IMG/VR virus record: IMGVR_UViG_3300008448_000746
Coordinates: 1-22,074 of that record
Length of the DNA: 22,074 nucleotides
Origin: a virus
Reading direction: 5' to 3' (one strand)
In this document: in pieces, positions 3,801-20,567 of the stretch
How positions within the stretch are numbered: the first letter of the stretch is position 1
Layout: the number at the start of each line of letters is the position of its first letter
Translations under genes and position numbers: made by a program
The notes under the pieces: generated by a model
Told to the model about the DNA's origin: nothing
Seen by the model: only the letters and a program-made list of their open reading frames with translations
Database searches by the model: none

Positions 3801-6800
3801 GTGTCAATAGCACTTTGTATGTCTTCATTAGTATACGTATTACCTGAAATTACATCATACCCATCAAAGAAAAATGAAAAGTCATTTATTAGTTTGGGAT
3901 AAAATCCTAAATTATATACTGACCTCACATTTGTACCCGCAGATATTTCGTTTTGAAGTGTTATGGAAGTTCCAGTTGTTTCCCCAATACCTGTGAAATA
4001 ATATGTTTTGGTTTGTGCCGATGAGATTGGGTCGTAATTTTCAAGGTAATTAAAGTCTGTCCAAACGTCATCCAATATATCAACACCATCTTGGATATAT
4101 TTTTTATATCTATGCCATATCGAGCCATACTTCAATACTAAAGAATATGGTATTTTGTGTATTCCTGAAAACTTCTTGAAACACGAAAAAATATAATTAA
4201 GGTTTTCGGTATCTGTTCCACTATAATTTTTATACTTTTCACTTACTGTACTCAATGGTAAAGAGTTCAAAAATAAATAAGCCGATTTAACAAATGGATT
4301 ATTTAAACCTAACTTTACCCTATTAACTCCTTGTTGAATAGAATTTATGAAATATGGTGTGTTCAACATTGATGTTGTTTGAATAGCGTTTGTTTGTCCA
4401 CTATAATTCGAATAGGATACTGAACCCTCTGTTGTAAATTGTTCTTTTACATTTGTACCAATCCTATTGGTGTAGAAATTTTTCAAGGTAGTAGTATCAA
4501 CTATACCACCAGTTGGTGTAAAATTTGGATTTGTTTTGTTTGTAAAATTGAAATGTGTAAATGGTCTTTTTGATTTAGAGCCATCTATTTGTAAAAAATT
4601 ACTAACGACTTTTTTGAATCCGTCATACTCCAAAACCTTTCTTGTATCAAAGAAAGTTTCTACATTTTGTAGAGACTCTCCATTTGAGACATTTGATTTT
4701 AAATAATCCAAATCCGTAAATGGGTAAGTGTCTAAAAAATCGGGTGTATCCACAGTTGTACTTTTGACATACTTTTGTATCTTATCTAAGTTTGGTATAC
4801 TATTAGACGACTGGTCCGCGTCGTTAATCTTGTTAAAGATTGTACTATCGTAAAAATACCAATCGTTTTTTGAGTAATTTTCTATATATGGAGTTGTGTA
4901 AATACCTCTAGAATATGTTTGCCAAAGACCTCCTTCACCTGAGTTTGATATTCGAGATAAAATTGTTGTAATATTACTTGAATTGATTGCAAATTCTTTT
5001 AGTTTCTTAATCAGAAATACATTTGTTGTACCTAAAGAATTAGAAACATTGGTAAATTCTGTTTCTCCGATTACTTCGTGAATTGATTCGGCTAAAGGGT
5101 TTCCTCTATTTAATCTACTATAATTAACGATAAAACTCATTCTTTCCCATAATTCATATATGAATTTGATTTCCTCTTTATTCAAGTAAGGTTCATTTGA
5201 GAATGGGTACTCTATCGCATTTAACATCAATCTTGTAACGGATTCTGTATTTGGGTCAGGTAAACTTTCGACAGGAATATCAGTAAGTTTCATTGTATAC
5301 CCTTTTATCAATTCCTCTACAAACTCTACTTCAGGCCAAACATCATATCTATATGATTGTGTTATAGCAGCATTATTAGCATCACCAGGATATTTGATTT
5401 CAAAAACGTTTTCTCCATCGATATTACTTTCCACAATATATTGTGGCCATGGATAGACAAATGTATTATTAGAATCGGAGTTAACCTTATTCAAAATCGT
5501 ACTTTTTCTGATTTCACTATCTTTTTGGTCAAATGCTTTTTTATGAACTTCATCCATAAGTCTCAGAAAAGCCTCTCCATTTGCAAAAAATACAGCAAGA
5601 ACATTTCTTATTGTTGGTATAAATCCTATTGAAAAAACACTCCCATCTTTAAGTAATTTGTTCAGTAAATCAGTTACATTTTTCATAAAGTCATTTCTCT
5701 TCTGAGAAAATTCTTTACTCATTTTTTTTGTTCTTTCTATAAATGCATCTTTACCCTCTATGGTTTTTCCTTCAAAAATGTAATAAAAAGAAGTTGAACC
5801 AGTATTGGTAAAGTTTAGAGAAACTTCGGCTTTCAAACTAGCTTTGAATAGTTCTGCGGTACCCGTCAGGGATGGATTAGTAGATGCCACGTTTCCTTGC
5901 GCAAGGTAAGTTGCATCGTAATCAACTTTTTCAGGTTCTAATTTAAATTCTATCCATTCGGGTAAATCAGAAATTGTTTTTATATTAATTTTTACGAAAT
6001 TTTTTTCATAGTCTATTAGATTTCTTACCTCATAGTCTTTATTTTTTCCGCATTGTGGGTTATCATCGAGTTTTTTATTATTTAGTGTTAAAATATTACA
6101 TAATTCTGTTGTAGCATTTATGGCTTCTTGTGGTGAAAGTTTTTTTAGTTTGTAAACTCTTTGTTTATCTTTTGTAATTATTACACTCTGTTTGTCTATG
6201 TATTTGTTAAACCAAGAACCCTTATTTGGGTCTTCATTCGGTTCCGTACTAAAGACTTCCTTCTGATAGTTTATCAAATCATTATTAAAAGCATCTATAT
6301 CAGTAAGAGGTTGTACATTGATTTCACCGAATTTTTGTAAAACTTCTTTGATAAAGGTTTCAAGTTTTTTTTGAAACTGAACCAATGTCAGTTTAGGAAA
6401 ATCTGAGGGTATCAATCCTTTAGCAATATACTCGTCATATACTTGTGAAATTTTTTCATATCCTCCATAAACTTCTCCACTCGAAAGATTGGCTAAATTA
6501 TTTATAGGATTAGATTGGGGTTGTTTAATCTCTATATTTGATTTAAACATGTAAGGCACTGCCATCAAATACGCCATAGTCACCTCAGATAACATGGAAT
6601 ATTTGTACGTTAAAAATTTTAATCTGACAACAAAATTTCCTGAGCTTGTATCAAAACTTGCATTAAAATTTTGCAACATGAGTTGATAACGTATAGCTTG
6701 ACCATAAAATCCTTTCATTGTCAAATAAAACTTAGGATACGGTAAATTGAAAAAGGATGCGTATGGAGACTTATCTCCTAATTCAAACAAAGCCCTACCC

Positions 6801-7270
6801 CTAACATCTTCTAATGTCACCGAAACCTCAGGCATGAAAGATAAGGTAGTTTTAACCTGAATTTGGGTTATACCCAATAGAGAGCTCTCTTTGACACCAT
6901 TACTATTAATATTTGGGTCCTCTTCGTATGACCTAAAAAAACCTGGTTTTTGTTTTGAGTTGTCTTGTTGATTAGTCGGAGGTGTAATAAACGAATCTAT
7001 GTAGTCGTTTGTTAAATATTTTTCACCACTCGGATTCAAAAAATTAATTTTTGCAATAGATACTGTCTGAATTTCTGAATTTTCTACACCTACTGTGAGT
7101 TTACTTCTCGGTATAACCTCAGCCTCTAAGTTGGCATACATAACTAAATCTTCATGTCTTACCAACCTTTGTTTTGGTTTACCATCAGAGTCTATTATTT
7201 TATTTGGGTCAATTACAAATATATTCTGATAATCAAATTCAACTAAAATATTTTCACCATTATCTGCCAT
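872..7270 (-). CDS. Giant baseplate/hub structural protein, 2132 aa
   Basis: This is probably a central baseplate or hub protein at the distal end of the tail. Residues about 145-225 contain a dense conserved-looking block (LEDVRGRALFELGDKSPYA, then NLPYPKFYLTMKGFYGQAIR). I associate this block with very large structural proteins of environmental T4-like phages. The middle (about 250-1780) is long, Asn/Tyr/Ser-rich and beta-rich. Residues about 1825-1870 (IQPTMYFNLRHVPMFSGPYM, then MEVEHNITPGTFDTNFKG) match the style of gp27/gpD-type tail hub domains: G-x-x-x-I-Q-P, then a V-x-H-x-I strand. A Gln/Asn/Thr-rich linker (about 1900-1925) leads to a separate helical C-terminal domain of about 200 residues. 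The start overlaps the 107-aa gene by 11 bases. It is far longer than T4 hub proteins, so fusion or domain accretion is likely. Exact role and stoichiometry are inferred. Confidence 0.85.
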   Translation of the reverse strand: MADNGENILVEFDYQNIFVIDPNKIIDSDGKPKQRLVRHEDLVMYANLEAEVIPRSKLTVGVENSEIQTVSIAKINFLNPSGEKYLTNDYIDSFITPPTNQQDNSKQKPGFFRSYEEDPNINSNGVKESSLLGITQIQVKTTLSFMPEVSVTLEDVRGRALFELGDKSPYASFFNLPYPKFYLTMKGFYGQAIRYQLMLQNFNASFDTSSGNFVVRLKFLTYKYSMLSEVTMAYLMAVPYMFKSNIEIKQPQSNPINNLANLSSGEVYGGYEKISQVYDEYIAKGLIPSDFPKLTLVQFQKKLETFIKEVLQKFGEINVQPLTDIDAFNNDLINYQKEVFSTEPNEDPNKGSWFNKYIDKQSVIITKDKQRVYKLKKLSPQEAINATTELCNILTLNNKKLDDNPQCGKNKDYEVRNLIDYEKNFVKINIKTISDLPEWIEFKLEPEKVDYDATYLAQGNVASTNPSLTGTAELFKASLKAEVSLNFTNTGSTSFYYIFEGKTIEGKDAFIERTKKMSKEFSQKRNDFMKNVTDLLNKLLKDGSVFSIGFIPTIRNVLAVFFANGEAFLRLMDEVHKKAFDQKDSEIRKSTILNKVNSDSNNTFVYPWPQYIVESNIDGENVFEIKYPGDANNAAITQSYRYDVWPEVEFVEELIKGYTMKLTDIPVESLPDPNTESVTRLMLNAIEYPFSNEPYLNKEEIKFIYELWERMSFIVNYSRLNRGNPLAESIHEVIGETEFTNVSNSLGTTNVFLIKKLKEFAINSSNITTILSRISNSGEGGLWQTYSRGIYTTPYIENYSKNDWYFYDSTIFNKINDADQSSNSIPNLDKIQKYVKSTTVDTPDFLDTYPFTDLDYLKSNVSNGESLQNVETFFDTRKVLEYDGFKKVVSNFLQIDGSKSKRPFTHFNFTNKTNPNFTPTGGIVDTTTLKNFYTNRIGTNVKEQFTTEGSVSYSNYSGQTNAIQTTSMLNTPYFINSIQQGVNRVKLGLNNPFVKSAYLFLNSLPLSTVSEKYKNYSGTDTENLNYIFSCFKKFSGIHKIPYSLVLKYGSIWHRYKKYIQDGVDILDDVWTDFNYLENYDPISSAQTKTYYFTGIGETTGTSITLQNEISAGTNVRSVYNLGFYPKLINDFSFFFDGYDVISGNTYTNEDIQSAIDTYNLQIKREGLANLSQGFDSSNTGRTLTMNYWSVYLPNSTKDSIYLMPSFGNTFNQTFNECFDNISSTASSPNLKIELNNNKNMYNGSARLFWSAPNYGYFDNEKVSKPAPDEYFKKIYTNTDSQENFFIGQSNYNSKIYDMIPTFKKEILDYFEDLFLKFTANRFDFKPMTDTPVQGSFTDIENQYQNFHMLFRSMFEITLNSGQTGIDDIDSAKEQQFNNFQSQIESFINYDVLLKIGNSSQYDRRVFLSLLNDTNNIEAGTDSVIDPIEFGFYSEKTPDALPTADNGVTIAASKILYPEAWKALELYVGNTSIEKIKFKDTGSTVFDFFIDVNIEFTENAISKLYPLIRVYATKKSQDETYSYEKFINELNEFVLGTIQYQNQSFDYMLKKLNTSLPTVNETPVREVVSQLFGSQAKVELWETLKALNDKWIAGIDLTRRTLFEDVLLLDRASRDIGDKIIIDINKLNDLLSNLNMKSNLLAYVKSILQENNFQMMPLPSYVNFYNVDTPIKNVEPKLEGNLEFANALFGTFKNVDYRKSTSKMVCLYAGKPSEHLDLKGEYRFKNDGFKLERLGEVPITENQSNKQDWAMSNRVVGFNVDIGTTNQGVFTNFSVSQDAGKATSESLATISDMASSASGKRSSTQNVSLYNLYKNRSYSCSVSMMGNALIQPTMYFNLRHVPMFSGPYMIMEVEHNITPGTFDTNFKGIRQAIYSLPKLDSYIQSMRESLITSIIDKFKQNKDTPNQTSANTPQQQVQAGTNNTNQLEVNPNGDCVRNSAYELYEQTTPVLKQINFKNALDTLTASTSSQITNETTRTKVNYLVWSIMYLASSTPQGFKGYNWNLAALKLNVKENDKEFDYGSRNAFLENKFFCLQSNNVQNAFASFLDFNNFIAFMVSSLSSRANEVAKFRSGGVFTKTEDEMAENFAKFITNLWPNKKIDDVFTKQKDTDAIKNRIKIIKEAISNAKSLGL

Positions 7271-7585: not shown

Positions 7586-10500
7586 TTAATTAAATTTTTT
7601 CTTACCATTAAATTTATTTTCATCTCCGAAATTTAAAGAAGAAGCAATATCTGAAAATTTTTGTTTTTGCTCTTCAGTTGGTGATGCGGCACTTACATAG
7701 TCCAAAACTCTCTTATTAGAAAGTTTATTAAAAGGATTGAAGAAATTTACATACTTATTGAATTTTACCGCGGCCCTAATTTTCAAATTATATTTCTTAT
7801 TCTTTTGTTTTTGTTCCTTGGAAAAATTTTCATGCATTGAGTTGGCACCCAAATTAAAGTCGATAGCATCTATTATTCTCAATCCTAAAATTTTATCCAT
7901 AACATCATCAGGTTTTTTCGGAAGTGTAACTAAATTTCCTCCTATATTATTACCATCGGGCAACAAGAACTTCTTGAAACTTTCCAAATTATTTTTATCC
8001 AAAAAGACTTTTGACATTAACATAAAAAACCTTTGTTCGTATTCTTGTTGTAGAATATCTGACTCATAGGTAAATGTTGAGTCCGGTTGTGATAAGATTT
8101 CTTCGGCATATATAAATTGTAGAAAATCGGCATATTGTGTGGGAATCAAGGCGTAGTCAGATGTTAAATCGGTCTGAGATGAACCAGTCAAATTATATAC
8201 AACAACTTTACCCGAATTAGTTACTTTCCCATCTATTGATGTATAAATTATGTTCATCTTATCCAATAACGATATCAAACTTAGTTCTTGAGAATAAAGT
8301 TGTTCCAATTCTATATCGATTCCATTAACAAAATCCTGTCTCATGTTTTCAACATATGTTAACATGTTTGTTTTTATTAAACTTATTACGGTACCTTCGG
8401 TTGAAAATCCTTTGTCCAAATAAAATTTGATTATTGTATTGTCATTATTGTTTATATCGTTTTTAACATCATCAATCAATTTATTCATTTGTTGTTGTGT
8501 TTCTGAGCATTTTCCAAATAACAACTCATTATCTATTTCACTAGCAATGTCACCTTTTGTATACCTTCTTTTTGTTGTAATAGTTCTAACTACACCATAA
8601 TTATAACTTTCAGCTAAAGATGTTAATTTACTAATTACAGTTCCGAAATAACTTTGAGACTGGTCAACTATTTCTTTCATGATTTGTTTATAACTCAATC
8701 GACCTGTTTCTTGGGTATCGGAGAACGTTTGTGAAGTTTTACCTAATATATTAGAATCTATGTTTCCTATTGTTTTTCCTCCGGCATTCTGAGGAGGATT
8801 TACAGAGGGTGAACCTTTTACTTCATCATTTATTTTCTTTTTCTCGTCAATCAAAGCGTCCAATCTGGTCACATCTTCAGTTGCAACTGACCTTTCATCA
8901 TAAATTTCTGTATTAGCGTAATAGTTGAAAGATAGTGCGTTTTGCAAATCTTCCACAGGTTTTGCCAAACCGTGTCCTCCAATAAAATCGAATGATAAGG
9001 TTACGTTAGCAATCATAGGCTGAAATCCTATACCTTCAGGATTCATATCATAAATTTGTTCGTAAGTAATTTGTAGGTTTTTGGGTATGATTTTAGTGTT
9101 GTAGAAATCACCAATCCTCAAGACAAGTACTGGTGGCGAACCAAATGCGGTGTTCACTGAATCGTTATATATTGGTTGGCCATCTTCACCTATCACTGGA
9201 ATTGTATCACCTGGTCTCACACATTGATTCAAGAATGTCAGTCTCGAATTGAGTCCTTCAGGAGTTATGGAGTGGAATGATGGTGAAAAAATTTTGAGTT
9301 TTTTTCTCAATTCATCATATATAAAGGGGTCTTCAGCTTTGAGAACTTCAAAATAATCACATTCTGTTAGTAAGTCTCTAAGAACTTTCTTAGACAATCC
9401 AGGCCTTTGTATTACATTTACAGTAGTTGTGGTTTTACCCTTTATTACTTTTTGACCTGTGACTCTTTCCTCGAATTGTAATTGAGCGGGAGTAGTATTT
9501 TCATTATCAGCGGCAGGCGGCTCTGTTTTCTCACCAGGTGTTACCGTAATTGAATCAAATCTTACGCTTCTACAACCCATTGATTCTATCGTGTAAATAG
9601 CATCACTGTCCGTCATAGTTTTTCCTGAATTTGTACCTATAGTATACGTTGGGTTCTGACTGCAATTTTTCGAATCGTAAAATTTATCACCCTGTCCTTT
9701 AGGTGCCACACTTGTTTCTTCACCAACAGGATTTTCATTGATAACTAATTTTTGGTCTTCCATAAATTGACTAAAAGTTATCGGGTCTTCATCGCCACCT
9801 GCTGAGTAGTTTTTGAAAAACTTTATTACCGAATCAATCCTTCGTTTTGATAAATTTAAATTGTAATCTACAGAGGCACTTGCTGAAGCCGACCCTATCA
9901 TATTAATTGAAACTGTGCCACCATCTTTCAACACATTATATAAATCAACCAACATTTGGTCTTTAATAGTTGTAAAATTGTAAGATATTACTTGGTCGAA
10001 AAAGTTTCCAACACCTGTAGGGTCATTTTTAGCCTTATTTATGTAGATTAATTTTCTATTTATATATCCATTATACGAACTATTGTAATCTTCAGACGAA
10101 GTGGTTCCGTTGTTCGGTGGTGGAATATTATTATCAAAATAAAAACCCAATCCCACATATTTTTGTAAATCTACAGTGGAATTATCTTCCTCTTCTACAC
10201 TATTTACTTGTGCTGGAGTTACGGGATTGATTGGAATCTGCTCTTTTATATCTTCGTATTGGTCTGGAGATGTATTAAGTATCTTCTGTATTTCTTCGAA
10301 AACAGACCTATTTACGGTTCCGTACTTGGAGGCTAAATCATAAAGGTCGTATTTTTGACAACCAGCGAAAAATGAATCCAACATTTTATTAGCATCGATA
10401 GGCGTCTCATTTGCCAACACTTTATTTACTAATATATTTAGAACTGAAGGGTGGTCGACAACTATTTTCCAAGTCAAACTACCTGTACGTGAAGTATTTT

Positions 10501-12202
10501 TATAGGTATATATGGGTTCGGGTCTACCAAGAAATGCCTTTTCATCCCAATTTGCGTTGGATGAATCATTGAACGTTAGTCCGTATGGTGGGAACCACAT
10601 AATTCTTCCTCCATTCGGTCCCTTCTCACAAGTAGGTAAATCTTGATATGTATATCCTTTTCTAGCACCCGACTTCCAAGCCAAGTTTTCTAAAGAAAAC
10701 ATATACTTCGTGACAGAATTAGGACCGACATTTGTTGAATTTGCACCTTTCAAAGGGGCTATGTTAAGATTATATGTATTATCTAATATTGTGTTTTGAA
10801 ATCTTCTTCCATATCCTGAAATACCTTCAGGTTTTTGTAATCTCTCGTAAGTACTATAAGTGTCAGCCTTTGTGAAAACTCTACAATATTCCTCACCAAC
10901 CTTTTTTTCAAATAGTGGGTCTTTATAAGTAACCACTCTTGACCCTTTAGTTATTTGTTTATATCCGTCATTGAATATTTTACTGATTTGGTTGATAGCA
11001 TTTCCTACATGTTTGAACCTTTGTTCTCCTTGTAATCTGTCCGCTGACTCAATTAATCTTTGTGTGTCATCTAAAATCGAACCTGGTTTAAACGGTATCT
11101 CTGTGGAGTAAAATTTGCTTTGTCCTGCTTTATATTTGGGTGATACCCAAATCATATCACTTTCCAAATTACCTTGGTCAATGACAGCAACGGATTTCAA
11201 ACCGAAATTTAATTTACCTTCGTTTCCTTCATAGTCTTTACCCAAAACATCAGGTCCGTAAACAGGTGCTTGAGTGTCTCTTCCATAAACATCGATTGGA
11301 ACTGCATTAATTGGAGATGTCGCATAAGAAGGTTCCGATGTTATTGAACCAACGTAGTAAGCGCCAGGTAATTGTAATCCGAAATTATCTAATAAGTTGT
11401 TGATACCTGTTGTTATTAGATTACCTAACAATCCACTACCTGTAGAATCTCCATAAGCAGGACGGTAAATATTGTATGATAGATTTGAAAACAAAATACC
11501 TTTTTGTCCTTCGGTTGTATTTTGAAGGAATATTTGTGAAGGATTAATTTGTCTAGTAAGACTACCATTAAAGACTCCTCCTACAGTTGTACTTCTACCG
11601 GCAATAGAATTTATTGCCTCACCTAAAGTATCCGTCGTTCTTTTATTTAAACCATCTAAAAAGTAATCTCCTGGTATTGGTGATGTTGGTTGATATGCAC
11701 CTTCTAATTTACTTTCAAACGTGTCGTTAACATCAGTGGTTGTGATTTTAAAACTTATCTGTTCTCCACCTGTTGTATATAACTCTTCATAAACCGCACT
11801 TGAATCTACTAAAGACTTTTTTAGAACTTGTGCTCCAATTTTGGCGAGATAAGAATCTTCCGAAAGGGGACCAGGATTTCCCTGTGGGTCATTACTTGTG
11901 AGAATACTATATGGAGTATAAACTGACGGAACAATTTTGGCACCAGGGTTGTCATTTCTAATTATCGGTGGTCCATAACCATCCAAAAAGAATAACGTTT
12001 CGGGTGCTGATAAGTCAGGTTGTGTTTGCAGATATGATATAGACCCTTGTGGTTCTGAATTGATACCATTTATTGTGTATGGTTTTAAATTAAGAAGTAT
12101 CAAATTTTCTCTGAAAATTTGAGATGGTTCATATGATAAAAAACTTCCACCAATTGGTACTTCTACATCAGCAGGATTTACATTAACGGGTATTGTCGGC
12201 AT
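7586..12202 (-). CDS. Large baseplate protein with OmpA-like domain, 1538 aa
   Basis: This is probably a baseplate component, because it sits between the tape measure gene and the gp53-like gene. Around residues 530-560 is an aromatic-rich block (RIMWFPPYGLTF, then FLGRPEPIYTYKNTSRTGSL and a DHPSVLN motif). Residues about 725-795 form an OmpA-like domain ending in GSASASASVDYNLNLSKRR, with a probable last strand near residue 878 (CRSVRFDSI) after an insertion. Around 1000-1090 comes a third block (SFHSITPEGLNSRLTF, NPEGIGFQPMIANVTLSFDF, IGGHGL). I associate this block with large tail proteins of environmental myoviruses. The C-terminal 400 residues are helical and then Lys-rich. No signal peptide or membrane segment is seen. 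ATG at 12202 has an A-rich leader (CTGAAAAA) with no Shine-Dalgarno sequence, and a TATTTAT motif lies 21 bases upstream. Confidence 0.85.
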   Translation of the reverse strand: MPTIPVNVNPADVEVPIGGSFLSYEPSQIFRENLILLNLKPYTINGINSEPQGSISYLQTQPDLSAPETLFFLDGYGPPIIRNDNPGAKIVPSVYTPYSILTSNDPQGNPGPLSEDSYLAKIGAQVLKKSLVDSSAVYEELYTTGGEQISFKITTTDVNDTFESKLEGAYQPTSPIPGDYFLDGLNKRTTDTLGEAINSIAGRSTTVGGVFNGSLTRQINPSQIFLQNTTEGQKGILFSNLSYNIYRPAYGDSTGSGLLGNLITTGINNLLDNFGLQLPGAYYVGSITSEPSYATSPINAVPIDVYGRDTQAPVYGPDVLGKDYEGNEGKLNFGLKSVAVIDQGNLESDMIWVSPKYKAGQSKFYSTEIPFKPGSILDDTQRLIESADRLQGEQRFKHVGNAINQISKIFNDGYKQITKGSRVVTYKDPLFEKKVGEEYCRVFTKADTYSTYERLQKPEGISGYGRRFQNTILDNTYNLNIAPLKGANSTNVGPNSVTKYMFSLENLAWKSGARKGYTYQDLPTCEKGPNGGRIMWFPPYGLTFNDSSNANWDEKAFLGRPEPIYTYKNTSRTGSLTWKIVVDHPSVLNILVNKVLANETPIDANKMLDSFFAGCQKYDLYDLASKYGTVNRSVFEEIQKILNTSPDQYEDIKEQIPINPVTPAQVNSVEEEDNSTVDLQKYVGLGFYFDNNIPPPNNGTTSSEDYNSSYNGYINRKLIYINKAKNDPTGVGNFFDQVISYNFTTIKDQMLVDLYNVLKDGGTVSINMIGSASASASVDYNLNLSKRRIDSVIKFFKNYSAGGDEDPITFSQFMEDQKLVINENPVGEETSVAPKGQGDKFYDSKNCSQNPTYTIGTNSGKTMTDSDAIYTIESMGCRSVRFDSITVTPGEKTEPPAADNENTTPAQLQFEERVTGQKVIKGKTTTTVNVIQRPGLSKKVLRDLLTECDYFEVLKAEDPFIYDELRKKLKIFSPSFHSITPEGLNSRLTFLNQCVRPGDTIPVIGEDGQPIYNDSVNTAFGSPPVLVLRIGDFYNTKIIPKNLQITYEQIYDMNPEGIGFQPMIANVTLSFDFIGGHGLAKPVEDLQNALSFNYYANTEIYDERSVATEDVTRLDALIDEKKKINDEVKGSPSVNPPQNAGGKTIGNIDSNILGKTSQTFSDTQETGRLSYKQIMKEIVDQSQSYFGTVISKLTSLAESYNYGVVRTITTKRRYTKGDIASEIDNELLFGKCSETQQQMNKLIDDVKNDINNNDNTIIKFYLDKGFSTEGTVISLIKTNMLTYVENMRQDFVNGIDIELEQLYSQELSLISLLDKMNIIYTSIDGKVTNSGKVVVYNLTGSSQTDLTSDYALIPTQYADFLQFIYAEEILSQPDSTFTYESDILQQEYEQRFFMLMSKVFLDKNNLESFKKFLLPDGNNIGGNLVTLPKKPDDVMDKILGLRIIDAIDFNLGANSMHENFSKEQKQKNKKYNLKIRAAVKFNKYVNFFNPFNKLSNKRVLDYVSAASPTEEQKQKFSDIASSLNFGDENKFNGKKKFN

Positions 12203-12266: not shown

Positions 12267-14816
12267 TTATCCAAATCCAGGTGGAGTAGAATATGGTTTA
12301 CCCTGAAGTTGTCCATATCCATTTTCTTTGTTTTTGATTTGCGTATAAATTGCATCGGTGAACTCTCCATTACCTACCATTCTTTTTACTTCATCTGTTA
12401 CGTATCTTGAGAATTCGTTTGGTACACCTCTGACCTCTACAACAATAGTGATTTGTCCTCCAACATCTAAGTTAGATTCCGACTTTGTAGTATTTGGTGT
12501 TAATTCTGTTATTGGTTGTTTCGATAATTCGGTTGGCGCAACTTCGTAAACTTTATCTAAACCTTCCGAAGTTTGTGTTGCAGCCTGTTCAGGTGTCAAC
12601 ATTTGTTTTACTTCACTTACCTCGACTTTGGTAAGTTCGCTTTCGGAAGAACTTTCTTTAAGTTCTTTTTTTTCTATGGTTGTTGGTTCCAATGATTTTA
12701 CACCTAATAACTTTTCTTGTGAGGTAATCAAACTATCGAACTTACTCATCAAGGGTTCAAAAACGGCTAAATAATTTTCATCTACTGGGTTGGAATTAAA
12801 TTTAGAATAATCAATTTCAAAGTTATTTTCTTTTGAAACTTCTATTAACATATCAAGTCTATCAACTATCCTATCAGTTTGAGTGATGTCCGAATCAATT
12901 ACGGGACCCATATTAACTGCGGGTGATTCAGACTTTTCTAATGAAGCCGTTAATAATTCTTCCATTGCTTTGAATTCTTCTTCATTTTTTTCTTGTTGTA
13001 TTTGTTCAGGTGTTTTATTTTCTGGAGTTGTGATTGTGGCTGGAGATTGCATTGTGCTTCTCATTTGTTCCATTGTTTGGTCTAAAGTTTCATGCCAATT
13101 CATACTTGAAGCACCACCCGCACCTGACCCAGAACCTGAGGTGGTTCCTGCTCCAGCTGAAGTACCACCACCTGCTGATGAAGAAGTAGTACCTCCTAGT
13201 CTTTCAGCTCTTTTTCTTTTAATTTCATCAGAAGCCGCTTGTAAGGTATTACCTACCGAATTCATAGTTTCTTTAGTCATTTCTGGTAGTTTGGTTGACA
13301 TTTTACCTGCTATTGTTTCGAATTGTGGGCCCAATCCTTCTAAAGTTGTCATTACTTTTGTAATGTCCCCTTCTTGTAGTCCCTTAACTAAATCTCCAGC
13401 TATTCTTGTTGGTATTTCAGCCATTGCATTTCCAATATCCCCTAATGTTTCTTTGGAAATATCATGTAAATCTTTGTCCTTTTTATCTTTTTTGAATGTT
13501 GCATTCATGGACTCTTGCATTAATTTGTCTGTGCTTGCTCTATAGTCTCTACCGCCCGCCGACTGAGTGACACCCGCCCTTCCTGCCGATGCAATGTATT
13601 CTAATTGTTTTAACATTTTTTGACCAACGGTTAACTGGTCTTTGGCATATTCTTCCATACTTTTTGGTTGAGCTTGTTTTTTTAACAATTCAACGTCCTC
13701 AGGTGCCAACTTGTTGACCGCAACCTCTTTTTCATCCCCTTTTTCATCTATAAATTTTACCTTGTATTCACCAGACTTCTTATCGAACTGAGCGATATTA
13801 GCAATCATCTCTCTATCTTCTTCCGTCATTGGAACCTTCATTTCAGGGAAACTTATTTTTTTCATCTTATTTTCCAACTCGGCCGACTTAATGGTCATCT
13901 CTGTGAATTTTTGTAATGGCATACCCATCGCATTTGCCAACTCTCTCATCCTTCCCATTTCACCAGGTAAAATACTTACCTTTCCTGAAGTTTCATCAAT
14001 TTTTGTCAATCCTTTGGTGACATTAACCATTTGATTCATCAGTTCTTCAGGATTATTCTGACCTAAATCCATAACTTTCAGTGGGTCCAATAAGTCAGAA
14101 GTAGTAACTCCGAGCCTTTGTAAGTTAGCCGCCAAATCAATCGCTTGTTCAGGGTCAAAAGCCTTCTCAGCTATTTTAAAAACATCCTCCATATTAACTC
14201 CCAAAACTGCGGATTTTGCAACCATTTTTGCCAATCCTTCAACTCCGTTTTGGAAATTGTATTGATTTAATTTATTTAGATTTGCCGAAACACCGGCCGC
14301 TACCGCTCCTACATTGACTCCAAGTTTTTGTGCAACATTTGCGGCTGTTTTCATTTGGTCTTGAACATCTGTCAGTTGGAAACCAACCTCTGAAAAATTA
14401 GCCGCTAAGTCTTTAGTAGAAACTCCAGTTGCTTGCGAAGTTGTTTCTAAACCTTTTATAACTTCAGCAGATGCTACAAAACTTCTTTTTGTTGCATTAG
14501 AGACCTCTACAACAATTTCTGAAGCCCTTTTCAGTGCTGCTTCATATGTCATCGCATTTTTTGAAACCTCCAAAAGTCCTGTTGCAGATTTTCCAATTGA
14601 AATCTCCATGTTTCGGACTTTATCACCAGCGAAACCAAATGTTTCGGAAACCCTTTCAGCACCTAATTCTAACTCTTTTAGGGTTTCTCCTATGTTTGTG
14701 ATTCTGTTTTTTACTTCCCCTATCTTATCCTTAAAACCTGTGTCGTAGATACTACTACTTTGTGCAGGTGGAATAGAACTTGATGGATTAACATCTCCGT
14801 CGTTTTGATAAAGCAT
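12267..14816 (-). CDS. Tape measure protein, 849 aa
   Basis: This protein sets tail length and occupies the tube lumen before DNA ejection. The identification rests on position (directly after the chaperone pair, before the baseplate genes), length and composition: long, Ala/Lys/Glu/Met-rich and mostly helical with few aromatics. Residues about 1-480 are predicted helices. A Gly/Ser/Ala/Thr-rich linker (residues about 538-572, including GGGTSAGAGTTSGSGSGAGG) separates them from a second helical half. Near residue 790 a beta strand (GQITIVVEVRGVP) precedes a final helix. No lysozyme or peptidase motif and no clear membrane span were seen. By the rule of about 0.15 nm per residue, the tail would be near 127 nm. 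ATG 14816 is 14 bases after a TATTTAT motif. The call is firm at the level of role. Confidence 0.85.
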   Translation of the reverse strand: MLYQNDGDVNPSSSIPPAQSSSIYDTGFKDKIGEVKNRITNIGETLKELELGAERVSETFGFAGDKVRNMEISIGKSATGLLEVSKNAMTYEAALKRASEIVVEVSNATKRSFVASAEVIKGLETTSQATGVSTKDLAANFSEVGFQLTDVQDQMKTAANVAQKLGVNVGAVAAGVSANLNKLNQYNFQNGVEGLAKMVAKSAVLGVNMEDVFKIAEKAFDPEQAIDLAANLQRLGVTTSDLLDPLKVMDLGQNNPEELMNQMVNVTKGLTKIDETSGKVSILPGEMGRMRELANAMGMPLQKFTEMTIKSAELENKMKKISFPEMKVPMTEEDREMIANIAQFDKKSGEYKVKFIDEKGDEKEVAVNKLAPEDVELLKKQAQPKSMEEYAKDQLTVGQKMLKQLEYIASAGRAGVTQSAGGRDYRASTDKLMQESMNATFKKDKKDKDLHDISKETLGDIGNAMAEIPTRIAGDLVKGLQEGDITKVMTTLEGLGPQFETIAGKMSTKLPEMTKETMNSVGNTLQAASDEIKRKRAERLGGTTSSSAGGGTSAGAGTTSGSGSGAGGASSMNWHETLDQTMEQMRSTMQSPATITTPENKTPEQIQQEKNEEEFKAMEELLTASLEKSESPAVNMGPVIDSDITQTDRIVDRLDMLIEVSKENNFEIDYSKFNSNPVDENYLAVFEPLMSKFDSLITSQEKLLGVKSLEPTTIEKKELKESSSESELTKVEVSEVKQMLTPEQAATQTSEGLDKVYEVAPTELSKQPITELTPNTTKSESNLDVGGQITIVVEVRGVPNEFSRYVTDEVKRMVGNGEFTDAIYTQIKNKENGYGQLQGKPYSTPPGFG

Positions 14817-14845: not shown

Positions 14846-15037
14846 TTAGTTTTTTGGTGAATTGTCCTCAACAAGTTTATCTAAAAGGTATCTTCTCATA
14901 TATGTAGGTATGAGTTGAAAGTCGCTATACGAAATATGAAGGTACTTCGCTAGATAGTAAAATTGGTCTACTAAAGATTTGGTATAATCAGAAGAATGGC
15001 CGAAAAAACTCCACCCCGAAGTTGATATCAAATTCAA
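14846..15037 (-). CDS. Downstream tail-assembly chaperone segment (gp51/T-like), probably made by frameshift
   Basis: The ORF overlaps the 3' end of the 252-aa gene by 50 bases in the +1 frame. Its C-terminal half (LAKYLHISYSDFQLIP, then MRRYLLDKLVED) has the helical, aromatic and Arg/Lys-rich look of gp51-type hub assembly factors in T4-like phages. A position between chaperone and tape measure matches the T segment of lambda G/GT. There is no ATG near the beginning. The only early start is a TTG at 15037, preceded by AGGAG at 6 bases. Other starts here lack Shine-Dalgarno sequences, so a +1 frameshift at 15000-15011 producing a fusion of about 299 aa is at least as likely. In that fusion residues 13-63 of this ORF follow residue 248 of the upstream protein. 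That the frame is used is fairly safe; how it is started is not. Confidence 0.65.
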   Translation of the reverse strand: MNLISTSGWSFFGHSSDYTKSLVDQFYYLAKYLHISYSDFQLIPTYMRRYLLDKLVEDNSPKN

Positions 15038-15746
15038 CCTTTTCTCCTGACGGGGCTATTGCAACTCTTTTTAAATCTAAACTTGGTTCATTGTCGTTTA
15101 GAAAATTTCTTATGAATTTAGAATCACCTATTGGTAATGTTTCAATAGACTGAGAAATGAAACCTCTATCTTCATTGTCGTTTAGTGAGATGATTTGTTT
15201 GTTTAATCTCCATGAAACTTTTGGTGCTACTCTTCCGGCAGGATATTCATTAACCATTCTATCGATATCCATTGTATCGAACATGTTCATTGGTTTAAGT
15301 TTAGCCTTCATTCCGCTTTTTGGAAGAGTGACCTCAAAAAAACCTTGTTCATTAGGTTTGTGTTCACATTTTTTTATATTGATTTCATCCAATAAAACTG
15401 TGTGGTTAAATTTTTCCTTGGTTGCTGGGTCAGTAAGACCTATTGTATATTCAGAACCGAATGATGTATTTCTTAGGAAAATCAAAATCGCTTCGATATC
15501 CCCAGTTAACAACTCTTCAGGTCTTAAGTCAGGCTCGAATAGTTTATTCCTTAATAAAGACAATACAACACCATCTTTAACATTATTATTCAAAGACCCC
15601 AAAATTATATTTTCATCCGCAGCAGTCAAATAACCTACTTTAACAGATTTCTTTTTTGATTTGTAAAAAATTCCCCCTGTTGGTAACTGTACCAAGTCAT
15701 GAGGTAAATTAAACGAGTTTTGTCCATATGATTTGTAATCTTCCAT
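14988..15746 (-). CDS. Tail-assembly chaperone / gp26-like baseplate hub assembly protein, 252 aa
   Basis: The protein resembles the T4 gp26-type baseplate/hub assembly family. It has an N-terminal LPTGGIFY strand and turn, a helical region around LRPEELLTGDIEAILIFLRN, and mixed strands to the C-terminus. It is placed directly between tube and tape measure, the position of the G chaperone in many tailed phages. The role would be to keep the tape measure soluble and help start tube or hub assembly, without being in the mature virion. The frame is open from an ATG at 15794, but that ATG lies in the T-run of an intrinsic terminator. I therefore prefer ATG 15746 (MEDYKSYG), which has the A-rich leader typical here. 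The last codons contain a probable +1 slip site (UUU UUU CGG) leading into the 63-aa frame. Confidence 0.8.
   Translation of the reverse strand: MEDYKSYGQNSFNLPHDLVQLPTGGIFYKSKKKSVKVGYLTAADENIILGSLNNNVKDGVVLSLLRNKLFEPDLRPEELLTGDIEAILIFLRNTSFGSEYTIGLTDPATKEKFNHTVLLDEINIKKCEHKPNEQGFFEVTLPKSGMKAKLKPMNMFDTMDIDRMVNEYPAGRVAPKVSWRLNKQIISLNDNEDRGFISQSIETLPIGDSKFIRNFLNDNEPSLDLKRVAIAPSGEKVEFDINFGVEFFRPFF
15000..15017 (-). promoter_or_regulatory. Candidate programmed +1 frameshift site
   Basis: The minus strand reads GGG GTG GAG TTT TTT CGG in the frame of the 252-aa gene, 4 codons before its stop. Moving one base forward on the second TTT re-pairs tRNA-Phe with TTC and enters the frame of the 63-aa ORF. 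A purine-rich GGAG ends one codon before the slip codon, the same spacing as the Shine-Dalgarno-like stimulator in bacterial prfB. The A-site codon CGG is likely rare in such AT-rich DNA. A -2 slip on the six T's would reach the same frame. Confidence 0.5.
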
Positions 15747-15840: not shown

Positions 15841-16329
15841 TTAGTATACTAAGATACAACGGTCCATTCTCAGGTTAGCAGAAATATCTGCTAAGTTGTC
15901 TGTTGAATAACCCAAAGCACCAAAGTCAACACTTGACAAGAATGTTCCTTGTAAAATCCATTTTTCTACCACAACACCGGTTGGGTCCAACATTTCCAAG
16001 TCAATATCTTTTTTATATCCTGCCGCATAACCCATACGACCTGTAACGGATTCTGCACAGAGACGTACCCATTCCATAAGAGCCTGAGCCGCTGATGGTC
16101 CGATAGGGTCACGGAATTTAACACCGATTTCATCCCAATTGAATCTACCCGCAACGTAAGTTGAAGTGTTCAAGAATTGTATTTCGGTTGCTGCGATTTT
16201 AATCGAAGGTCTTTTTGCACTTTCTACAAACCATTCGTTGATACCTAGACTCGAAGGGAATCTCAAGATGAACCTATTTTGTCGTTTCGGTTCATAAGGT
16301 ATCGGCATTTTCATTAGTAAATCAGCCAT
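15841..16329 (-). CDS. Tail tube protein (gp19-like)
   Basis: This is the inner tail tube subunit, stacked as hexamer rings inside the sheath. Its 162 residues are almost the same length as T4 gp19 (163). The order of elements fits the gp19 family: an N-terminal PYEPKRQNRFILRFP strand, a helix-bearing GINEWFVESAKRPSI segment, a beta region with FNWDEIGVKFRDPIGPSAAQ, then an LMEWVRLCAE helix. The end is a strand hairpin, WILQGTFLSSVDFGALGYST. There is no signal peptide, as expected for an intracellularly assembled structure. The start is ATG 16329 behind an A/T-rich leader with no Shine-Dalgarno sequence. A strong terminator follows directly, so it closes the sheath-tube transcription unit. 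The HAD gene lies 60 bases upstream, which separates the tube from the sheath. Confidence 0.92.
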   Translation of the reverse strand: MADLLMKMPIPYEPKRQNRFILRFPSSLGINEWFVESAKRPSIKIAATEIQFLNTSTYVAGRFNWDEIGVKFRDPIGPSAAQALMEWVRLCAESVTGRMGYAAGYKKDIDLEMLDPTGVVVEKWILQGTFLSSVDFGALGYSTDNLADISANLRMDRCILVY

Positions 16330-16389: not shown

Positions 16390-17238
16390 TTAGTATTTCC
16401 TTTTAATTCCGCCAGCGGTTGAGTAAGTTTGTAAAATATTATCGGGTTCGTTTTCGAAATGTTTTTTCATAGTTTCAACATTTCTTATATCATCGTCAGA
16501 AAAACCTAAAGTTGGTTCAGGAATGAAGTTATTACTAACATCATTTTTAAGGAATGCCTTTTTTCCAATCGTATTTGAGATTTCTTTTATATATGATATG
16601 AATTCTTTCATCGCCTTTATTTTACCTTCTTCAGGACTTGTGGCAGAACCTTCACCGTATGATACAGGATAAAATCGACATAAATCAAGATATTCGTCTA
16701 AAATCTCCATTTTATCTTGTGTACCGTCATAACCTGCAATGTCTCTGTATTTCTCCAAATTTTTTACAAGTTCCATAAATGATATACCATCTCTGTTGGA
16801 TAATATAAGATTATAACAAGCCTCTCTCAAAACAGATGGTGTGTGTCCTCTTGCGGTGATAATTGCAAATATTGAACCGTTGTTGATTGCTTCCACAAAA
16901 TCAGACCAAGCAGGTCCTGTAGGTGCGGTCATAGAATCTATAATAAATTTTCTATCACCCTCAACTCCGAAGTTTCTGAAAGCATTTTCACCAAAACCTA
17001 CAATTGTTTCACCCTCATATTGAAAGTCTTCTTTACCAATCATACTTCTGTAATGTGCGAAATCTTCAGTTGACATTCCGACTTCTTCACCATCATCGTT
17101 TTTCAGGATAATTTTTGTTGGCATGTTCATAATGTTATCATCCCAATCAAAAGCATAATACTTCATGTCGGGAGTTCCAGCCTCCGTAATCCCTTCGGAC
17201 ACGGAAGCTGGTTTTTTATATATCCCTTTTTTAATCAT
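16390..17238 (-). CDS. HAD-superfamily phosphatase, 282 aa
   Basis: This is a soluble hydrolase of the haloacid dehalogenase superfamily, probably a phosphatase or nucleotidase. Motif I is FDWDDNI with the nucleophile Asp31 and general acid Asp33. Motif II is the strand AIITARGHTP with Thr128. Motif IV is LGFSDDDIRN, with acidic residues 248-250 that would hold Mg2+. Motif III Lys is not certain; candidates lie around residues 205-210. About 90 residues between motifs I and II would form the cap. The substrate cannot be read from the sequence; nucleotides, 3'-phosphate ends and small phosphate esters are all possible. The start overlaps the 36-aa gene as ATGA, indicating coupling. An enzyme between sheath and tube is unusual, since those two genes are normally adjacent. 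An alternative start at Met25 would retain motif I. Confidence 0.85.
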   Translation of the reverse strand: MIKKGIYKKPASVSEGITEAGTPDMKYYAFDWDDNIMNMPTKIILKNDDGEEVGMSTEDFAHYRSMIGKEDFQYEGETIVGFGENAFRNFGVEGDRKFIIDSMTAPTGPAWSDFVEAINNGSIFAIITARGHTPSVLREACYNLILSNRDGISFMELVKNLEKYRDIAGYDGTQDKMEILDEYLDLCRFYPVSYGEGSATSPEEGKIKAMKEFISYIKEISNTIGKKAFLKNDVSNNFIPEPTLGFSDDDIRNVETMKKHFENEPDNILQTYSTAGGIKRKY

Positions 17239-17348: not shown

Positions 17349-20300
17349 TTAGATATTTTCAAATGACGCACCTGTTGGAGTAATGTAGAATGTTATGTCG
17401 ATGAATTCCAACGCTCTTGTAGGTTTGATATAAATCGAACCAACCAATCTATTAGCATCCAAGTCTTCAGGTGTATTTCTTACAGTCACTCTGAAATCAT
17501 AAAGACCTCTATCTCTTCTAATTGAATCCAAAATAGGATTAACAGCATCCAAGAATTGTTGTCTTACAATATCGTCGTTTTGTTCGAATAGTAATCTTAC
17601 AGATACCGCAGAAATCAACTTACGTGCTTGTAATAACAATCTTCTTACGTTGATTCTATCAAGTGCCGATTGTGCGATTTGTAGAGTTTTATTACCCCAA
17701 ATTACAGTTCCTACGTCTGAGAAAGTCGCGATTGGATTGATTCTTCCTTCGTAAAGAACATCTCTGTCTTCTTGTGAAAGTTTCTTTCTTGCTTTGACAG
17801 CATTTACAAGACCTCTTGTATAACCCGCAGTTGCGAACCAAGGGAAAGCAACATTATCGGTAAGTGCCAAGTTTCTTGTTACTTCCGCAGTTGGTGGAAT
17901 ATAGATTTGTGTATTATTCACCGTGTCTCTTGTCAACACCCAAGGATAGTAAGTTGCGGTATAGTTTGAATCAATATTTGAGTTTACTAAGTTATCAACC
18001 GCAGATTGTGGTAATATTTGGTCTTGAGTATCATTTGTATTCGGTACGAACATTTCCCAGTCTGGTGTTGTTACCAAATATATTGAGTCCGCCCTATCAA
18101 ATTCTACAATATTAACCGCTTGATTTACCAATAATGAGTTGTTTACATAATCAATACCAGGTGTTACAAAAACGTTGATGTTTACTGCCTCAGGGTTAGA
18201 CATAGTTTCCATACCCAACAAGTATGCGTAGTAGTCTGTGTTAGCGTAATCCACAGTATTTTGGTCAATTGTGATTTGTTTGAAAGTACCACTTCCTGTT
18301 GCGGATGGGTATCTAGAATTAGGACAAGCCCCTTTCTTATATCCGGTACCACCTAAAATGAATCTGTCTGTATTTGTTCTTGATTCAGTATAGATATCCC
18401 AACCATCAAAACCACCTGCTGGTAATAAAGTGAATTTTCTTGCGAATGTTCTGAAGTATGGATTATCTGAGTTTTCAGGTTCAGATTGGAATGTTGCATC
18501 CCCGACGAAGAATTCAGGTGTACCACTTGTTTGATAAGTGTTTGATATTGTAATCGCACTAGCCTCTTTATCCATGTGGAATCCTCTAACTTTGTAATCC
18601 CAAGAATCTTGAGTTGCTTCAATACAAAGATTTCCAGCTCTTACCTTTCCTTTGTAATCAAAGAAATCTCCATCGAATCCAACTCTATCTGAAATACCCA
18701 AATAAGTTCTTCTAACATTGTCACCATTAGTTGTTAAACTTATTCCAGCACCTATTGGTGTGTTAAATGGTGGTTCAAAAATAGTAGTGCCAGGGTCTTC
18801 GTATTTTGTTTTATAGATTACGAACGGTGGTTTATTAACTGTGTATCCACTATATGTTCTCATTACATATCCTTCGAAACCACAAGGTAATGAATCAACC
18901 GGTGCATCCGTGTTCATCTCAACCATTACAAATTTAGAAATTAAAGAATATTCACCATTTGTAGAACCAATTCTTTTTGCAACATAATTGTTTAAGTTAG
19001 GATTCATCGAACATTGTGTGAATTTTTCAATCACAACAGGATTTTGGTCTGAGTCATAGTAATCTCTTACAAGAACGTCGAATGTATTATTTACAAAGGA
19101 CATATTAGCCAAAGAGATTTTGATTTCTCTGTTTGCTGAATTACCATCAGAAATTGTTCTGAACTTGAATAATCTGAACACGGTGTCTCCTCGAACTTCC
19201 GAAACCACCCAAGGTGTTTCAGGTGTTTGGTATTGTTCCAAATAATTTCCTAATGATGTAGTTGAACCACTTCTAGCAGATTCTAATGGAATTAAATTAC
19301 AATTAAGACCTCTGATGTATCCTTTATTATATGCGTAATTAAGTAAGTTTGAATAACTTTCTTCAACAAACAAAGGAACCTCTGTCTTTGGTTTGTCAAA
19401 ATTAGAAACACCAAATACTTTGGAAATATAATTTGTATTGGAGTTCAATAGTGATGTTTCAAATTGGAACGTTTGATTAGTTCTAGTCAAACCTGATAAT
19501 TTGAAAGTTGAATATGGATTAGAAGAAACTCCTGAATATGAACCCGTACAAATCATATTTACATTTGAAATTGTGGGAACTTCGTAAACAGGCCCATTAT
19601 CTGATATGTATGCCGATTTACCTCTCGAACGTAGAGTTGCAACAACTAAATTCTCGTAATCAGAAAAGGATGTACCTGAATATTCAAAGAAAACTACATC
19701 CATGTACCCTTGGATATCAGATAGACCAATTGAGAGAGCTTGTGTTGGTGTTTGTATAATATAGAAACCTAAACCAGTGTAAGAACCATTAGAATTATCA
19801 AAAGTTGCATAATACCAAGGGTCATTATCACTACTTGGAAGAGTGTTCGCTGATAAAGAAACCGCATTTACACCGAAAACATTTGTTTGTGCAGTATATG
19901 AAGATAAACCATCATAGTTAGAACTTGGTATAGAACCCCAGAAATGAACTATTGGTTCATCCACTGAAACTGTAGTATCTTCATAATATGATATTATATC
20001 AGAAATCCAATCTTTCACATCATCTACAATCGTAGATGTACTACCATCTATTTTTCTATAACTTTCATATATGTCAATTCCTGTCAAAGTTGACGCAAGT
20101 GTAGTTTCATCAAAACCAAAAGAATAAGTATTAAAACTACCACTAGACGTATCAGCACTGAACTGAATCGTACTTGGTGCCCCCGCGTTTGTTGTACCAT
20201 TATAACCTATTGTACTTGCATCGACATTCGCGATAGTTTTAATAGACCAAGATGGACCCGCATCATACCCTGATAGACCGAGGATTCTTGATACGAATAA

Positions 20301-20567
20301 TTGATTTGATTGTTGTAAATACGCCTTAGCAATATATGCCGCCTCATATTTAGGAATTTGTGTGTTCACAAATTTTTCTGGAGATGTCCCTCCGAATATT
20401 GTTTGAAATTCGTCATAGTTCTTGATGAAAATTGGTTCGAAAGCTGGACCCTTAAGAGTCTCACCCACAATACCCAACGTTGTAACACCAACACTAGAAG
20501 CAACAAAAGTCAAATCAACTTCAGATGTGTAAACTCCAGGAGAAACGAAAACTTTACTGTTTGCCAT
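17349..20567 (-). CDS. Tail sheath protein (gp18-like), 1072 aa
   Basis: This is the contractile sheath subunit that surrounds the tube and drives it through the envelope. The N-terminus (VFVSPGVYTSEVDLT, then LGIVGETLKGPAFEPIFIKN, and the YDEFQTIFGG segment) and the C-terminus (residues about 950-1072: EGRINPIATFSDVGTVIWGN, NVRRLLLQARKLISAV, RNTPEDLDANRLVGSIYIKP) are classical for gp18-type sheath proteins. At 1072 residues it is about 400 longer than T4 gp18 (659). The excess lies in the Ser/Thr/Tyr/Asn-rich, beta-rich middle, roughly residues 110-800. This would form outward-facing protrusion domains. The start is ATG 20567 behind an A-rich leader with no Shine-Dalgarno sequence. A TATTTAT motif lies 35 bases upstream. 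The stop is 3 bases before the 36-aa gene, so sheath, 36-aa, HAD and tube genes probably share a transcript. Confidence 0.93.
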   Translation of the reverse strand: MANSKVFVSPGVYTSEVDLTFVASSVGVTTLGIVGETLKGPAFEPIFIKNYDEFQTIFGGTSPEKFVNTQIPKYEAAYIAKAYLQQSNQLFVSRILGLSGYDAGPSWSIKTIANVDASTIGYNGTTNAGAPSTIQFSADTSSGSFNTYSFGFDETTLASTLTGIDIYESYRKIDGSTSTIVDDVKDWISDIISYYEDTTVSVDEPIVHFWGSIPSSNYDGLSSYTAQTNVFGVNAVSLSANTLPSSDNDPWYYATFDNSNGSYTGLGFYIIQTPTQALSIGLSDIQGYMDVVFFEYSGTSFSDYENLVVATLRSRGKSAYISDNGPVYEVPTISNVNMICTGSYSGVSSNPYSTFKLSGLTRTNQTFQFETSLLNSNTNYISKVFGVSNFDKPKTEVPLFVEESYSNLLNYAYNKGYIRGLNCNLIPLESARSGSTTSLGNYLEQYQTPETPWVVSEVRGDTVFRLFKFRTISDGNSANREIKISLANMSFVNNTFDVLVRDYYDSDQNPVVIEKFTQCSMNPNLNNYVAKRIGSTNGEYSLISKFVMVEMNTDAPVDSLPCGFEGYVMRTYSGYTVNKPPFVIYKTKYEDPGTTIFEPPFNTPIGAGISLTTNGDNVRRTYLGISDRVGFDGDFFDYKGKVRAGNLCIEATQDSWDYKVRGFHMDKEASAITISNTYQTSGTPEFFVGDATFQSEPENSDNPYFRTFARKFTLLPAGGFDGWDIYTESRTNTDRFILGGTGYKKGACPNSRYPSATGSGTFKQITIDQNTVDYANTDYYAYLLGMETMSNPEAVNINVFVTPGIDYVNNSLLVNQAVNIVEFDRADSIYLVTTPDWEMFVPNTNDTQDQILPQSAVDNLVNSNIDSNYTATYYPWVLTRDTVNNTQIYIPPTAEVTRNLALTDNVAFPWFATAGYTRGLVNAVKARKKLSQEDRDVLYEGRINPIATFSDVGTVIWGNKTLQIAQSALDRINVRRLLLQARKLISAVSVRLLFEQNDDIVRQQFLDAVNPILDSIRRDRGLYDFRVTVRNTPEDLDANRLVGSIYIKPTRALEFIDITFYITPTGASFENI

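Follow-up and report, generated by a model that had tools for sequence, protein, structure and literature searches.

The window, which is the whole stretch of DNA analyzed here, is a 22,074-base IMG/VR virus fragment whose minus strand encodes a contractile-tail module. The tail sheath protein (1,072 aa; 17349..20567, minus strand) was recognized by matches to PF17482 (1.5e-9), PF04984 (5e-8) and phrog_23 (1.8e-60). The sheath protein is unusually long and the matches to sheath domains are confined to its C-terminal third. A gene for a gp19-type tail tube protein (15841..16329, minus strand; phrog_4542, 6e-22) adjoins ORF1 on the upstream side, and ORF1 itself (14988..15746, minus strand) specifies a 252-aa protein. 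The gene directly downstream (12267..14816, minus strand) encodes a probable tape measure protein of 849 aa, an assignment based on position, length, a match to phrog_6557 which is a family of unknown function (9e-4), and synteny, as the corresponding gene bears a tape measure annotation in phages immuto and LIS04. Between the sheath and tube genes is the gene for a 282-aa protein (16390-17238, minus strand) whose FDWDDN motif hints at a HAD-type phosphatase and for which searches yielded neither a Pfam match nor a significant PHROG match. Two very large proteins are encoded downstream of the tape measure gene: one of 1,538 aa (7586-12202, minus strand), which elicited a sub-threshold OmpA-like match only, and one of 2,132 aa (872-7270, minus strand).

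The ORF1 product matched PF12322, the T4 gp26 family, with an E-value of 7.7e-9 and a score of 36 bits compared to the curated cut-off of 24.5, and also matched phrog_150 (4e-12). When an AlphaFold model of the protein (40-sequence input; pLDDT 85) was used as a Foldseek query, a baseplate hub protein of phage SP-15 (1.2e-17) and gp26 of Aeromonas phage 25 (1.9e-6) were retrieved. Sequence and fold searches of the PDB returned nothing useful, and no ORF1 relative was found in a search of the genome collection. The position of ORF1 between the gp19-type tube gene and the tape measure-like gene also is that of the T4 gp26 family. Judged from its sequence, ORF1 is a member of this family and specifies a predicted tail assembly chaperone, the short form or TAC-N. 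The initial annotation had proposed a pair of chaperone ORFs ahead of the tape measure gene. PF12322 is matched over its full length by both gp26 and gp51 of T4; a review lists the two proteins as hub assembly chaperones and describes gp51 as essential, with its function unknown (PMC3004832).

ORF1 extends from an ATG at 15746 to a TGA at 14990-14988, with sense codons at 15746-14991, and its 3′ end reads GGG GTG GAG TTT TTT CGG CCA TTC TTC TGA. The putative slip site TTT TTT C occupies 15002..15008 (minus strand), of which the two TTT codons are 15008-15003 and the second UUU is 15005-15003. It was assigned from the sequence and from the presence of TTT followed by a pyrimidine (TTT-Y) in relatives. 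The next codon, CGG (15000..15002, minus strand), would occupy the ribosomal A site. The overlapping frame in the +1 register (14846..15001, minus strand) comprises 51 sense codons, GGC...AAC (15001-14849), followed by a TAA stop at 14848-14846, and was identified by an extension HMM and profile matching as the predicted C-terminal domain of a long chaperone form, TAC-NC. The sole codon in the window that could act as an independent start upstream of the extension domain is an in-frame TTG (15035..15037, minus strand). Sequence and coordinates thus bear out the initial description of the end of a 252-aa gene overlapped by a +1-frame ORF without an ATG. A product of about 299 aa had been predicted and forced translation with a +1 shift, in which CGGC was read as glycine, gave exactly 299 aa. 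Codon 215 of the fused reading frame also reads TTTC. The base that precedes TTT TTT in the window is G, where the canonical -1 heptanucleotide X_XXY_YYZ would have U before UUU UUY.

Seven IMG/VR contigs are close relatives (87-89% protein identity) and form, with the window, a clade of eight. The +1 overlap arrangement was maintained in all seven. The 24-nt block TTTTTTCGGCCATTCTTCTGATTA was unchanged in 8/8 sequences of the window clade, including the CGG codon. The ORF1 end has six degenerate codons, all of them free of synonymous changes, compared to 63% of such codons changed elsewhere (P ~0.0025), although the overlap by itself would account for some of this constraint.

More distant relatives, with ~25% identity, possess a similar +1-frame extension. 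They include Microcystis phage Mel-JY01, Flavobacterium phage immuto, Listeria phage LIS04, Bacillus phage SP-15, Rhodothermus phage RM378, Streptococcus phage GXN1 and LR756508, such that the +1 clade spans phages of Flavobacterium, Microcystis, Rhodothermus, Bacillus, Listeria and Streptococcus. Frames were assigned with the extension profile, except that L013 was placed in the -1 group by hand, and 188 loci were in +1, among which 113 non-redundant (NR) relatives were <90% identical over 300 nt. An in-frame TTT followed by a pyrimidine was present within the overlap at 188/188 loci and in 113/113 NR relatives. In same-length stretches from the bodies of the same genes it would be expected by chance in ~6.8 of the 113, although the relatives share ancestry and hence are not independent trials. 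Where the overlap was nine codons or fewer, TTT-Y was found in 22/22 instances compared to one expected; the shortest overlap is six codons (TTC TTT TGG CCT). The most frequent site among the 188 loci was TTT TTT TGG (117), followed by TTT CTT TGG (35), TTC or CTT before TTT TGG CCT (17), TTT TTT CGG (8, the window clade) and TTT CTA TGG (4), besides singletons; the sequence in SP-15 is TTT TTT CAC. The constant element shared by all +1 sites is a UUU codon from which tRNA-Phe can move by +1 and pair again with UUY: slippage is impossible on the second codon of TTT CTA and on the first codon of TTC TTT. In one locus (L007, around 4400) ORF1 bears a frame-breaking mid-gene indel that is probably an assembly error; the slip site there is intact.

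The arrangement is very probably explained by a programmed +1 frameshift in which tRNA-Phe slips from UUU to UUY, so that one gene yields both a 252-aa short chaperone and a 299-aa long chaperone. A +1 move at UUU-Y had been proposed to join the two ORFs, and the comparison of 188 relatives favors this reading over the others. Most ribosomes would terminate at the TGA at 14990-14988 and release the short form, whereas a minority would stall while UUU occupies the P site and the very rare CGG the A site. The tRNA-Phe (anticodon GAA) would then slip forward by one base from UUU to UUC, and the shifted ribosomes would read GGC CAT TCT ... in the +1 frame to produce the 299-aa form with its 51-aa C-terminal domain; the predicted fusion peptide spans ...FGVEFFGHSSDYTK. 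By analogy with lambda gpG and gpGT, the short form may coat the tape measure protein, while the long form may use its extension to recruit tail tube subunits. We infer the occurrence and efficiency of slippage and the exact slip codon, as well as the stimulation by upstream G-rich sequence and a role in tail assembly.

The extension might instead be a separate small protein that is translated without frameshifting, either from the TTG at 15037 or through reinitiation in the vicinity of the ORF1 stop codon. The in-frame TTG is compatible with this proposal, as is the treatment of the homologous domain as a separate gene by annotators of cyanophage genomes. In 53/113 NR relatives the +1 frame also contains an ATG or GTG at some upstream position. 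However, the stretch from the upstream +1 stop codon to the domain is devoid of ATG, GTG and TTG in 35/113 NR relatives, and in 31 of these also of CTG and ATH. Moreover, the overlap is kept even when reduced to six codons and the 24-nt invariance in the window clade centers on the slip site and not on the TTG. Two relatives that are nested in the +1 clade (L119 and L125) do have the extension as a separate ORF with its own ATG, but these are the only members in which the slip codon is not TTT. The ORF in each (near 2205) starts right after the ORF1 stop codon and includes ~25 new N-terminal residues; by sequence, the chaperone is naturally split in these relatives. A separate ORF that has a good start codon, the case that the initial annotation had held against frameshifting, thus occurs in nature, but in the two relatives where the slip TTT is replaced by TTC, and the exception therefore supports the rule. 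Overall, independent translation is an improbable explanation.

A -2 frameshift on the U run, from UUU UUU to UUU as in Mu, would generate a 300-aa product with an extra phenylalanine. The six U residues in the window permit perfect re-pairing of tRNA-Phe for this movement, and the +1 and -2 frames are identical. Nevertheless, the sites TTT CTT TGG, TTT CTA TGG and TTC TTT TGG (57/188 loci; 31/113 NR) can re-pair only at +1 and no case that needs -2 was found, which makes the -2 mechanism very improbable. The junction predicted in the window is EFFGHSS under +1 and EFFFGHSS under -2. Transcriptional slippage, or a sequencing or assembly error, at the T6 run is exceedingly improbable: a six-T homopolymer is a common place for such errors, but relatives with TTTCTTTGG or TTCTTTTGG have T runs of four or fewer, and the same frame relation recurs in 188 separately assembled contigs and finished isolates, the latter being RM378, immuto, SP-15, LIS04, GXN1 and Mel-JY01, by which sequencing error is ruled out.

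Sequences that might stimulate +1 slippage were considered on both sides of the UUU codon. CGG is the rarest sense codon used in the window, where it appears once in 6,741 codons, and that single instance is the A-site codon; CGC is absent. The rarity of CGG had been proposed on the basis of the AT-rich genome and is more pronounced than was claimed. It fits a hungry-codon pause by analogy with influenza PA-X. As the codon after UUU in most relatives is UGG, CUU or CUA, the rare arginine codon is specific to the window clade and is not a rule for the family. On the upstream side, a GGAG that resembles the element at prfB had been noted. The sequence is present in the window, but window GTGGAG reads GTGGAC or GTTGAA in close relatives, so that it is lost even at 88% identity and its 3-nt geometry is private to the window; GGAG consequently was rejected as a conserved Shine-Dalgarno element. 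GGGG (15014..15017, minus strand) is located 5 nt before the first UUU and 8 nt before the second, and at the 8-nt distance is kept throughout the window clade. Among relatives with a glycine three codons upstream, GGG is used in 36/67 (54%) compared to 6.2% of glycine codons in ORF1 bodies. This enrichment and the invariance of GGGG in the window clade mark the latter as a candidate Shine-Dalgarno-like element. Within part of the Mel-JY01-like group GGG directly precedes the slip site (12/13). Shine-Dalgarno-like 4-mers were detected in part of the relatives, namely 46/113 NR (41%) compared to a background of 10%, an approximately fourfold excess. The patterns are consistent with the G-rich upstream sequence acting as a variable Shine-Dalgarno-like stimulator. 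No strong or consistent RNA structure was found downstream (mean z of -0.73 compared to -0.31 for the control; -1.7 in the window).

Sister lineages differ from the +1 group in that their extension lies in the -1 frame. They comprise Atu_ph07, PA5oct, 121Q, Vibrio 2.275, SCTP-2, CM1, Bakedbeans, Cygsa01, C48C1, S-RIM8, L131 and LR756511. Nearly all of these carry U_UUU_UUY; Cygsa01 has AGC ATT TTC instead. Additional cyanophage contigs had the extension in the -1 frame in 80/80 cases with NNT TTT TTC as the site. The base before TTT TTT was T in each of these 80 cyanophage sites, but in none of 80 NR +1 sites. Slippage by -1 at U_UUU_UUY thus is unavailable in the +1 group as the preceding base is never T. 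The record for Synechococcus phage S-SCSM1 (L109; MK867354.2; 3150-3400) places the extension in the +1 frame, which is probably due to a single-base indel in the record given the uniform -1 arrangement in its 80 cyanophage relatives, and the phage was excluded from the count. Profile comparison revealed that the +1 extensions are homologous to the -1 extensions (Prob 96.8, P=2.6e-10). The match of the -1 extension profile in T4-type gp51 coincided exactly with the C-terminal tail (P=1.3e-5; gp51 residues 218-252), whereas no match with gp26 was detected. Direct comparison of the +1 extension with gp51 produced a weak match at the same place (P=0.01; 218-252). In a tree of the N-terminal domain, gp26 and gp51 of Straboviridae fell in one clade and at least three state changes were required among the frameshifting groups, a tally that is slightly too high because the doubtful S-SCSM1 sequence was included.

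Tail chaperones of T4-like phages use either frameshifting or duplicated genes, as reported by Vladimirov et al. (2022) according to papers that cite the work (PMC10885494; PMC12846349), and the concept of short and long chaperones in these phages is, to the extent conveyed by the citing papers, prior knowledge. T4 gp26 (TAC-N) and gp51 (TAC-NC) resemble the ORF1 system in belonging to PF12322, in the pairing of short and long forms, in the extension domain and in their place in the tail module. However, T4 employs two paralogous genes, whereas cyanophages and jumbo phages have a -1 site at U_UUU_UUC and the +1 clade has a putative +1 site at UUU-Y. The G and GT proteins of lambda likewise derive from a pair of overlapping ORFs that precede the tape measure gene and provide a short protein and a minor fusion (PMC5009743), but the shift in lambda is -1 compared to +1 in the window and the 188 loci. 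The hallmarks of a G/GT-type system, i.e., short and fusion forms, overlapping frames and a slip site, are reflected here in the frames, the site and their conservation.

The slip sequence TTT CGG in the window is like UUU CGU of influenza PA-X, in which P-site UUU re-pairs with UUC while a rare arginine CGN codon is in the A site, a parallel that had been drawn at the outset. Streptococcus phage GXN1 has TTT CGT, one of the singleton slip sites in the census and the PA-X sequence itself. PA-X differs in that the window involves a bacterial ribosome and a tail chaperone, and most relatives do not have CGN in the A site. The prfB site (AGGGGG UAU CUU UGA) shares with the +1 chaperone group a +1 shift, re-pairing that starts with a pyrimidine and, for only part of the relatives, an upstream G-rich element; many relatives are prfB-like in having CTT T, or GGG TTT TTT T with 3-nt spacing. 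Unlike prfB, which has a stop codon in the A site and mediates autoregulation of a release factor, the A-site codon in the window is CGG and the stop codon is four codons downstream. The initial suggestion of a distinct mechanism was too broad, since +1 sites are known in structural genes of Listeria phages PSA, A118 and A500, and the HSTV-2 tail chaperone very likely uses +1 (PMC5009743). The Listeria phages slip at CCC and the capsid or major tail protein is affected, whereas slippage in the window would be at UUU in a tail chaperone gene. HSTV-2 is haloarchaeal and its likeness to the locus is a +1 shift in a tail chaperone gene.

The forward direction of slippage in the T4-type chaperone family, retained by more than 100 relatives, appears to be undescribed, as far as the content of Vladimirov et al. 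(2022) is represented in papers that cite it. We consider it reasonably probable that a single Phe-Phe stretch has been used in opposite ways to recode one and the same C-terminal domain, with -1 slippage at U_UUU_UUC in cyanophages and jumbo phages and +1 slippage at UUU-Y in a large clade, that recoding was replaced by gene duplication in T4 and by a split gene that lost UUU in two relatives, and that the +1 sites constitute an undescribed class of tail-chaperone recoding. Tail assembly then would need a short and long chaperone pair, but the route to the long form would be free to change between -1, +1, duplication and a split gene. The locus also would provide a natural and phylogenetically replicated +1 site of a kind rare in bacteria, namely one whose A-site codon is not a stop codon, with 113 NR examples and many more in the database. 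The comparison flags hundreds of phage genomes that either lack an annotation for the C-terminal domain or present it as a separate small gene. For example, a "baseplate hub assembly catalyst" (gp51) is annotated after gp26 in three cyanophages (L100, L107 and L109) as an ORF of 34-54 codons. On sequence grounds, the gp51 ORF annotated in these phages is the frameshift extension of gp26 and not a separate gene.
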